Shown one piece after another: positions 4,068 to 25,075 of a stretch of DNA of 32,175 bases. The translations under genes were made by a program, and so were the position numbers. The notes below the pieces were generated by a model. That model saw only the letters and a list, made by a program, of their open reading frames with translations, made no database searches and was not told the origin of the DNA. Position 1 is the stretch's first letter. Every line of letters starts with the position of its first letter. This DNA is from a virus. The stretch covers positions 1 through 32,175 of the IMG/VR virus record IMGVR_UViG_3300045999_004770; one strand, written 5' to 3'.

Positions 4068-5123
4068 ATGGAATTACCTATATACGAACTCAAAATAGTT
4101 GAAGATTTACAGGATGATGCAGAGGTGTCATTCGTTGCATTGGTAGACAAGCCTGCAATTCAAAAGGACTTTCATGTGTTTGGTGAATCATTTATTGAAC
4201 CAAGCAAAGGCGAAGATAAACAACCATTCCTACAAAGATGCATTAGTTATGTAATTAACGAAGGCAAAGAAACTGAACAAGCGGTTGCGATATGCAATTC
4301 ACTTTGGGAGAATCATTTTGCATGGGATATAAAAACAGAATTTGCAGAAACTTATAACGATTACCCAAAGGCAGCAGCAGAGAATGCAAAGATAGCTTTG
4401 AGATGGGCAGAAGAAAATGGGTGGGGTGAGTGTGGAACTCCGGTAGGAAAAATTCGTGCTAATCAGCTTTCTAATAATGAACCCATTTCAGAGGAAACGA
4501 TTGCTAAAATGGCTTCATTTGCAAGACACAAGCAGAACTCACAAAAGGAATTAGGCGATGGTTGTGGCAGATTAATGTGGTTAGCATGGGGTGGTGATGA
4601 AGGAATTGAATGGGCAAGTAGAAAGTTAGAGCAAATAAGAAAGCAAAACTTTGTAAAGTTTGAAATAACAAACGAAGAACAACATATTATATCAGGACCA
4701 TTAATGCTTGCAGATACTCCGATATATAGAAGCAATTCCAAATTCGGTGAGCATTATGTAACATTTTCACCGGAAACAATCAAAGATATTGCAATCAAAT
4801 TTTCAAAGAAAGGATATCAAAAGAATGTTAATCTGATGCATGATTCAAATATGCAAGTTGAAGGATTGGTAATGTTTGAAAGTTTCATTGTTGATAAAGC
4901 AAGAGGAATATTACCAATGGCAGGATATGAAGATGCAAAAGACGGCAGTTGGTTTGGATCATTCTATGTAGAGAATCCACAAGTTTGGGAGTTAATAAAA
5001 CAAGGCAAAGTAAAAGGCTTTAGCGTTGAAGGATATTTTGATTATGCCGCACCAAACAAAGAAGAAAGCTATGCAGAAAAAAAGTTAAGAGAACTTTCTG
5101 CTTTATTAAAAGTACCTTTTTAA
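4068..5123 (+). CDS. XkdF-like prohead serine protease with inserted domain
   Basis: This is the predicted head maturation protease. The first 45 residues and residues about 205-335 resemble the phage XkdF putative serine protease family. They include GPLMLADTPIYR, an LMHD motif with His258 and a KGFSVEG motif with Ser319, the likely catalytic His and Ser. Between these halves, residues about 50-195 hold an insertion with an RCISYVINEG segment and a block containing YPKAAAENAK, GWGECGTPVG and GCGRLMWLAWGG. This block recurs in phage head proteins, but its role is unknown. The gene lies before the scaffold and major capsid genes, as expected for a maturation protease. The family call is from recognised motifs; catalysis is inferred. 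Confidence 0.75.
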   Translation: MELPIYELKIVEDLQDDAEVSFVALVDKPAIQKDFHVFGESFIEPSKGEDKQPFLQRCISYVINEGKETEQAVAICNSLWENHFAWDIKTEFAETYNDYPKAAAENAKIALRWAEENGWGECGTPVGKIRANQLSNNEPISEETIAKMASFARHKQNSQKELGDGCGRLMWLAWGGDEGIEWASRKLEQIRKQNFVKFEITNEEQHIISGPLMLADTPIYRSNSKFGEHYVTFSPETIKDIAIKFSKKGYQKNVNLMHDSNMQVEGLVMFESFIVDKARGILPMAGYEDAKDGSWFGSFYVENPQVWELIKQGKVKGFSVEGYFDYAAPNKEESYAEKKLRELSALLKVPF

Positions 5124-24118: not shown

Positions 24119-25075
24119 ATGACACACGCATCACTATTTTCAGGAATCGGTGGATTTGATTTAGCAGCGGAATGGGCAGGTTGGCAAAACTTATTTCATT
24201 GCGAATGGAATCCATTCGGACAAAAAGTATTAAAACATCATTTCCCAAATTCAATCAGTTACAATGACATCACTAAAACAGATTTCACTATTCACAGAGG
24301 ACAAGTTGATATCCTTACAGGAGGATTCCCTTGCCAACCATATTCAAGTGCAGGAAAGCGACTTGGCAAAGAAGATGAACGCCATCTCTGGCCGCACATG
24401 CTTAGAGCAATTCAAGAAGTTCAACCGCGTTGGGTTGTGGGCGAAAACGTTCGCGGACTTACTAATTGGAATGGAGGGATGGTATTCGACGAAGTGCAGG
24501 CTGACTTGGAAGCTGAAGGCTACGAAGTCACACCGTTTCTACTTCCAGCTTGCGCCGTCAACGCACCCCACAGAAGAGACAGAATTTGGTTTGTTGCCTA
24601 CTCCATTAGCATCAGAGGGAACAAAAATGAGTGGAGGACTAACAGAGAATCAAATGAGTTTGACAAAGATGGCAAGAAATCAAATGCTTCCAACACCAAC
24701 TGCAATGGACTCAACCAATGCAACAGCGACAATGAAGTCAACACAAGTGAAAGAGGGCAGTATGCATTCAGTAACATTGAGCAGATGGGCAAATCGAATT
24801 CTACCAACACCAACAAAGTCGGATTTTCAGCCGAGATGGAAAACGGAAAATTGGGAAGGAACTTCGGATTTGCCATCAGTAATAAACGAGATACTTGGGA
24901 CTCGTTCCCAACTCAATCCCCTATTTGTGGAGGAGATGATGGGCTTCCCAGAGAATTGGACGGTATTACCTTTTCAAAATGGCGGCAAGAATCAATCAAA
25001 GCATACGGAAACGCAATAGTTCCACAGGTAGCTTTTCAGATATTTAAAGCCATAAACCAATACGAAGCACTATAA
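24119..25075 (+). CDS. DNA cytosine-5 methyltransferase
   Basis: The 318-residue enzyme transfers a methyl group from SAM to cytosine C5. The ordered motifs are present: I (LFSGIGGFD), IV (GGFPCQPYS with catalytic Cys72), VI (GENVRG, Glu109), VIII (APHRRDRIWFVA) and X (SIKAYGNAIVPQV). The region where a target-recognition domain should lie (about 165-250) is low-complexity Asn/Ser/Thr/Glu, and is the part overlapped by a long +1 frame. It follows the primase-helicase by three bases and ends in a terminator. It may protect phage DNA from host restriction. The specificity cannot be read. Confidence 0.85.
   Translation: MTHASLFSGIGGFDLAAEWAGWQNLFHCEWNPFGQKVLKHHFPNSISYNDITKTDFTIHRGQVDILTGGFPCQPYSSAGKRLGKEDERHLWPHMLRAIQEVQPRWVVGENVRGLTNWNGGMVFDEVQADLEAEGYEVTPFLLPACAVNAPHRRDRIWFVAYSISIRGNKNEWRTNRESNEFDKDGKKSNASNTNCNGLNQCNSDNEVNTSERGQYAFSNIEQMGKSNSTNTNKVGFSAEMENGKLGRNFGFAISNKRDTWDSFPTQSPICGGDDGLPRELDGITFSKWRQESIKAYGNAIVPQVAFQIFKAINQYEAL
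24264..25019 (+). CDS. Overlapping +1-frame protein within the methyltransferase gene
   Basis: A 251-residue frame lies wholly inside the methyltransferase gene in the +1 frame. It starts MTSLKQISLFTEDKLISLQE and has a globular-looking part (FADLLIGMEGWYSTKCRLTW then FYFQLAPSTHP). Three repeats follow: LLPTPLASEG, MLPTPTAMDS and ILPTPTKSDF. It ends QLNPLFVEEMMGFPENWTVL. From memory, very similar LPTPT and MMGFP(x)nWT sequences are widespread beside phage cytosine methyltransferases, which argues for real coding. A possible role is a partner or recognition subunit of the enzyme. Expression is unproven. Confidence 0.5.
   Translation: MTSLKQISLFTEDKLISLQEDSLANHIQVQESDLAKKMNAISGRTCLEQFKKFNRVGLWAKTFADLLIGMEGWYSTKCRLTWKLKATKSHRFYFQLAPSTHPTEETEFGLLPTPLASEGTKMSGGLTENQMSLTKMARNQMLPTPTAMDSTNATATMKSTQVKEGSMHSVTLSRWANRILPTPTKSDFQPRWKTENWEGTSDLPSVINEILGTRSQLNPLFVEEMMGFPENWTVLPFQNGGKNQSKHTETQ

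Follow-up and report, generated by a model that had tools for sequence, protein, structure and literature searches.

A phage C5-cytosine methyltransferase probably encoded as two overprinted polypeptides, with the target-recognition segment in the embedded frame

The DNA analysed here (the window) is a stretch of 32,175 nt, positions 1-32,175 of the IMG/VR record IMGVR_UViG_3300045999_004770, a virus record with the tailed-phage genes for tape measure, portal and large terminase. It is proposed, with a probability of roughly 0.88, that one C5-cytosine methyltransferase is encoded in this window as two overprinted polypeptides, a catalytic chain (alpha) and a target-recognition chain (beta), which would be rebuilt into one enzyme by docking. 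The overlap of the two frames, selection on both of them, exchange of modules between loci, the presence of motif IX in beta and the homology of the module and motif IX part of beta with the in-frame TRD segment of single-chain methyltransferases are established by computation (TRD, target-recognition domain). The features of the locus, including the TRD segments, are as follows.

24119..25075, + strand: alpha, C5-cytosine DNA methyltransferase frame, 318 aa (PF00145 1.8e-46, TIGR00675 7e-42, phrog_363; alignment A2)
~24131-24160, + strand: alpha motif I (alignment A2)
24320-24346, + strand: alpha motif IV, GGFPCQPYS (alignment A2)
24563-24592, + strand: alpha motif VIII, APHRRDRIWF (alignment A2)
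24998-25036, + strand: alpha motif X, KAYGNAIVPQVA (alignment A2)
24264..25019, + strand: beta, embedded gene in the +1 frame of alpha, ATG start, 251 aa; proposed target-recognition subunit with TRD modules and motif IX (ORF list; phrog_1008 1.4e-28; conservation, constraint)
24264..24266, + strand: beta start codon ATG, out of frame within the alpha codons AAT GAC (Asn-Asp) (start conservation in relatives)
24381..24563, + strand: beta N-terminal extension, residues ~40-100, predicted helix-helix-beta hairpin, overprinting alpha between motifs IV and VIII (AlphaFold2, residue and identity conservation)
24591..24686, + strand: TRD-like module 1 (LLPTPLASEGTKMSGG..., family M1) (module clustering)
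24687..24800, + strand: TRD-like module 2 (LPTPTAMDSTNATATMKSTQVKEGSMHSVTLSR..., family M0, in 51/168 loci) (module clustering)
24801..24911, + strand: TRD-like module 3 (LPTPTKSDFQPRWKTENWEG..., family M2) (module clustering)
24912..24974, + strand: motif IX in the beta frame (LNPLFVEEMMGFPENWTVLPF) (hhalign to canonical motif IX)
24617..25015, + strand: alpha residues 167-299, predicted-disordered filler in place of a folded TRD (pLDDT ~30; M.HhaI/M.HaeIII match; omega)

The alpha gene is immediately preceded by a DUF3987 primase/helicase-like gene. The PHROG family matched by beta, phrog_1008, is annotated as DNA methyltransferase, and family searches of beta gave no Pfam or NCBIfam match. 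Elsewhere in the window, a predicted head-maturation-protease-like ORF (4068-5123) has a weak overlapping match to phrog_1530, which is also labelled DNA methyltransferase; this match is probably a label problem or a fusion.

Conservation, selection and translation signals of the embedded frame

The 251-codon second frame that had been noted inside the methyltransferase gene is real, and the further suggestion that the two frames form a conserved overlapping pair is borne out by the open frames and the constraint at codon level as well as by conserved starts and Shine-Dalgarno sequences. The open +1 run of the window comprises 261 codons, a length reached by 0 of 5000 synonymous shuffles (p < 1/5000; shuffle mean 93), while the longest +1 run averages 264 codons over 120 non-redundant relatives compared with 96 in shuffles; the shuffles keep the methyltransferase protein and the codon usage but not relatedness, for which the flanks serve as the control. 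More than 200 relatives were compared, and in essentially all of them the +1 frame is open. Stop codons in this frame occur at 0-0.3% per codon within the overlap, compared with 2-4% expected; at its far end (region D) the value is 3.0% against 2.9% expected, raised by the terminal stop of beta itself. Meanwhile, the +1 runs of 30 canonical methyltransferases of Bacteroidota, which are related bacteria, are 31-104 codons long, with 13-38 stops.

Scans of IMG/VR with the alpha frame alone and with the +1 frame found a second ORF in the same relative frame at every locus. Similarly, the same overlap is present, with few broken exceptions, in 80 genome loci obtained by a +1-profile search, and in 76 of the 77 Bacillota, Pseudomonadota and phage loci, the exception (L352) being without its N-terminal half; as the genome, Bacillota, Pseudomonadota and phage sets were collected via the +1 frame, these counts show conservation and not the frequency of the overlap among all methyltransferases. 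The methyltransferase frame is broken in L231. The locus L320 was considered as a different arrangement and rejected, since a frameshift at a homopolymer of the record is the best reading of it. In the viral loci L016 and L034, the +1 frame is open over the TRD part only, so the N-terminal extension may be dispensable in some members. Judged from the sequences, 24264-25019 is a conserved protein-coding gene.

Selection on the two frames was estimated from 49 disjoint close pairs, with omega taken from simple counts by effect on one member per pair and not from a full likelihood model. The omega values in the alpha/beta frames are 0.12/2.87 before the overlap, 0.20/1.36 in its catalytic part, 2.08/0.49 in the TRD part, 0.46/0.51 at the end of the overlap and 0.21/2.30 after it, where a value above 1 in one frame reflects constraint in the other frame. 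By this dN/dS check, the +1 frame shows no relaxation; the pattern indicates that beta is under purifying selection and is the sole constrained frame in the TRD region, and in its catalytic half beta is under weaker selection than alpha. For distant pairs, the +1 amino-acid identity outside the overlap is 0.41 compared with 0.34 in shuffles before it and 0.28 compared with 0.30 after it. In the successive parts of the overlap, the observed and shuffled values are 0.44/0.32, 0.53/0.31 (second half of the catalytic overlap), 0.28/0.14 (TRD part, where the +1 identity exceeds the 0.19 of the methyltransferase frame) and 0.64/0.31. Substitutions at methyltransferase codon positions 1/2/3 make up 17/10/73% of the total ahead of the overlap and 41/30/29% in the TRD part.

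In five loci of Bacteroides elements (L226, L238, L239, L240 and L321), alpha contains 2-3 TGA codons in frame; most of them stand where Trp is conserved, and at one place TGA alternates with TGG between loci. Beta is intact in these loci, and the catalytic region of alpha is under purifying selection (omega about 0.03-0.12). The TGA codons may be read as Trp in these elements, or the decay may be very recent.

The start of beta is conserved as well. An ATG occupies the beta-start column in 80 of 112 relatives, compared with 38.6 expected, and lies within 10 codons of the beta start in all 112, compared with 61.7 expected; the +2-frame control gave 0 for the same column and 1 within 10 codons. 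A Shine-Dalgarno match of five or more bases precedes the embedded ATG in 19 of the 47 loci outside the set of the window (6.8 expected; +2 control, 1 compared with 5.2 expected). For instance, aaaggaggtggccggATG is found in L351 and aaaggaggtttcctaATG in L353, and further examples occur in L314, L315 and L312. These matches indicate that relatives in lineages that use Shine-Dalgarno sequences give beta its own ribosome-binding site. There is no evident Shine-Dalgarno sequence at the beta start of the window, and the lack of this sequence is an established trait of Bacteroidota; the relatives of the window point to a Bacteroidota host, which the absent sequence would fit. In Paenibacillus phage Tadhana, both overlapping genes are already annotated, as cytosine methyltransferases.

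Parts of the two proteins and related architectures

Alpha carries motifs I, IV (PCQ), VI (ENV), VIII and X, which are invariant in the alignment. Its structural model matches M.HhaI/M.HaeIII over ~167 columns only, corresponding to the large domain, and residues 167-299 are predicted to be disordered (pLDDT ~30); alpha is thus predicted to lack a folded small domain. The low-complexity stretch rich in Asn, Ser and Thr that had been described in this frame at the place of the TRD is seen in the alignment.

Beta consists of three parts, namely an N-terminal extension, modules headed by LPTP and a C-terminal motif IX block, and the features originally described in it (FADLLIGMEGWYSTKCRLTW, the headers LLPTPLASE, MLPTPTAMD and ILPTPTKSD, and FVEEMMGFPENWTVL) are all present. 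The N-terminal extension overlies alpha motifs III/IV to VIII and contains the near-invariant residues C46, L67, G69, W73, S75, C78, L80 and W82. AlphaFold2, run with L001 left out of the alignment, models the extension as a block with pLDDT 53-84, highest (81-84) at residues 81-100. No counterpart of it was seen in single-chain relatives, and it is proposed to be a docking region. A total of 481 modules were clustered; there are 1-5 per protein, with three in the window, a median length of 39 residues and an L-P-T-P head. The same module families recur at differing positions and in differing combinations across loci, a distribution that marks the modules as exchangeable between loci.

The C-terminal block of beta reads LNPxFVxEMMGFPxxW, and hhalign places residues 217-232 on the canonical motif IX, LTPRECARLQGFPDTF, with an E-value of 0.0025; this match is short (16 columns), but it is the only local match of note and lies at the expected DNA position. 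Motif IX is thereby present in the beta frame and was not recognisable in the alpha frame, either in the alignment or in the architectures of relatives. Profile comparison of the modules with canonical TRDs detected no similarity, and we infer that the modules are TRDs from their position between motifs VIII and IX. AlphaFold2 gave a poor model of beta alone (pLDDT 59), a comparison of this model with the PDB returned no solved-structure match, and no fold-based claim on the modules is therefore made. A sequence-profile search of beta against solved structures produced a chance match only, which was discarded.

Homologues of the pair range from single-chain to fully overlapped forms. In mycobacteriophage DLane gp65 and Gordonia phage Leonard gp5, one chain contains, in this order, motifs I-VIII, 4-5 LPTP modules and motifs IX and X; the longest open +1 runs of these genes are 132 and 145 codons, respectively. 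Gordonia phage Upyo (gp54/gp53) and Arthrobacter phage KBurrousTX (gp79/gp80) have the chain divided behind motif VIII between two separate genes, which lie apart or overlap only slightly, with motif X in beta. The viral contigs L334, L353 and L368 have the +1 overlap; alpha ends right after motif VIII, and beta comprises the modules together with motifs IX and X. In the window and most relatives, alpha continues through the beta region and keeps motif X. The beta profile matches DLane gp65 (1.3e-14) and Leonard gp5 (9e-13) in a seven-sequence database, and these matches involve positions ~128-263 of the profile, covering modules and motif IX, and fall between the matches of the alpha profile. 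The series of architectures and the profile matches together make the second frame homologous to the target-recognition segment of C5-methyltransferases. The original suggestion of an enzyme and its specificity partner gains support from these homologues, in which the sequence of the second frame appears as an in-frame TRD and motif IX segment or as a separate beta gene.

In the viral contig L352 (1501-2193), four LWPTP modules and motifs IX and X share one frame just downstream of an integrase-like gene, and the methyltransferase lacks its N-terminal half, as if cut by integration or recombination. In L408 (Salmonella phage S9-5, 1023-1757), the +1 frame of the overlap holds one module, of the LWPT type, together with motif IX, and this locus is a candidate bridge to M.EcoHK31I.

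Among the sampled genomes, phrog_1008 was matched in 17 of 299 from Pseudomonadota, 3 of 297 from Bacteroidota and 4 of 300 from Bacillota. These frequencies are slightly inflated since each phylum sample includes its centre genome, already known to carry a match; the phylum names come from the titles of the records with the centre loci, L183, L170 and L190. None of the 14 control genomes had a match. When E. coli genomes were searched for an enterobacterial relative with L287, a locus from the Pseudomonadota search, only the flanking adenine methylase was found.

Proposed mechanism and alternative readings

In the proposed mechanism, alpha would fold the catalytic large domain (motifs I-VIII) and add motif X, with the disordered filler between them. 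Translation of beta would begin in the +1 frame at a separate start codon within the alpha gene, and beta would supply the small domain in trans, as three TRD modules and motif IX. It would dock on alpha, probably via the overprinted N-terminal extension and motif IX, and restore the enzyme. The modules would set the sequences that are methylated, probably one target each, and the methylation would protect the DNA of the phage against restriction by the host. The steps that we infer are that beta is expressed, that it docks, that each module has one target and that the enzyme acts against restriction. By analogy with the multispecific enzymes of Bacillus phages, each module is probably one target-recognition unit, and this phage may then methylate up to three sequences.

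It is improbable that beta, though a genuine protein, is no subunit of the methyltransferase and comes from an unrelated gene overprinted in the TRD region by chance, for instance one for a regulator of alpha or for an anti-restriction protein. The missing solved-structure match of beta and the missing counterpart of its extension in single-chain methyltransferases would suit such a protein; however, the same modules and motif IX stand in frame in single-chain methyltransferases and in split betas carrying motif X, and alpha is predicted to have no folded TRD. Slightly less probable still is programmed frameshifting, in which the ribosome would pass into the +1 frame after motif VIII and return before motif X to give a single-chain enzyme. 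The order of motifs I-VIII (main frame), modules and IX (alternative frame) and X (main frame) is colinear with the single-chain enzyme, and the two loci that are open in +1 over the TRD part only would fit as well, yet frameshifting leaves unexplained why the +1 frame is open for ~100 codons upstream and why an internal ATG is conserved and Shine-Dalgarno sequences occur, and nearly all loci keep the main frame open across the TRD part.

Only a very small chance is given to the two remaining readings. The +1 frame could be a by-product of codon bias and conserved methyltransferase motifs, with no gene in it, and indeed its first ~100 codons are partly dictated by main-frame motifs, with a shuffle-expected +1 identity of already ~0.31. 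Nevertheless, the observed run is never reached by synonymous shuffles, omega reverses in the TRD part, and identity and stop suppression end at the ORF borders, so that at the level of sequence this reading is refuted. Alternatively, beta could be a homing endonuclease hidden in the gene by insertion in another frame, as is the ShiLan element in mycobacteriophage methylases; a phage methylase with an out-of-frame HNH gene has been published (PMC11855218), but family searches gave no HNH or other nuclease family match in beta, and instead of a patchy insertion, nearly every relative has beta, which overlaps conserved motifs. The two-polypeptide methyltransferase remains the preferred reading.

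Comparison with known systems and implications

The closest known system is M.EcoHK31I, to which the family of the window is likened by layout alone, with no claim of membership. The small-subunit gene of M.EcoHK31I is nested inside the large one in another frame, as reportedly described by Lee, Kam and Shaw in 1995, and this nesting is shared by the window. It has been reported that M.EcoHK31I is a two-polypeptide C5-methyltransferase (YGGCCR) with motifs I-VIII and X in the large subunit and motif IX in the small subunit, and its predicted TRD was placed in the large subunit (PMC3404938). The distribution of motifs is the same in the window; unlike in M.EcoHK31I, the TRD segment lies in the small chain, the gene is a phage gene with several exchangeable TRD modules, and no restriction enzyme was recognised beside it. 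The published placement of the recognition domain of M.EcoHK31I differs from that in the window and should be re-examined. Compared with M.EcoHK31I, the additions are that the system is phage-borne and present in three bacterial phyla, that its exchangeable target-recognition cassettes are dual-coding and that the N-terminal extension overprinting catalytic motifs is conserved; compared with the original prediction, they are motif IX, the exchangeable cassettes and the M.EcoHK31I precedent.

The single-chain enzymes DLane gp65 and Leonard gp5 resemble the window in having homologous LPTP modules with motif IX in the segment from motif VIII to motif X, but use one reading frame throughout. The multispecific C5-methyltransferases of Bacillus phages are likewise single chains in a single frame. 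Those of SPR, SPbeta, phi3T and H2 contain tandem TRDs (PMC8936443); the window is likened to them by architecture, with tandem modules between motifs VIII and IX, and differs in having these modules in the other frame and not in a single polypeptide. In M.AquI, a split C5-methyltransferase, the first chain has motifs I-VIII and the second has part of the variable region and motif IX (PMC3404938). The window shares this division into two chains, but beta of M.AquI also has motif X, which the window has in alpha; the M.AquI layout is matched by L334, L353, L368, Upyo and KBurrousTX. A search of the open literature, with most subscription journals outside its coverage, found no account of this overlap in phages.

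The broadest reading of these data, for which the odds appear about even, is that phage C5-methyltransferases of a widespread class have relocated their entire target-recognition array to an overlapping frame, that the cassettes are exchanged as DNA blocks open in both frames, and that a folded docking domain arose de novo by overprinting catalytic motifs; the TRD assignment to the large subunit of M.EcoHK31I would then be wrong. Long embedded same-strand genes conserved across bacterial phyla are rare, and here roles can be assigned to both products. Since architectures from single-chain to fully overlapped coexist, the origin of an overlapping gene is directly open to study. Because annotation often calls one of the two frames, an annotated gene expressed alone would probably be inactive or non-specific, and searches for methyltransferase specificity would use the wrong frame. 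Since the modules are exchangeable, the methylation targets can be tested one cassette at a time.
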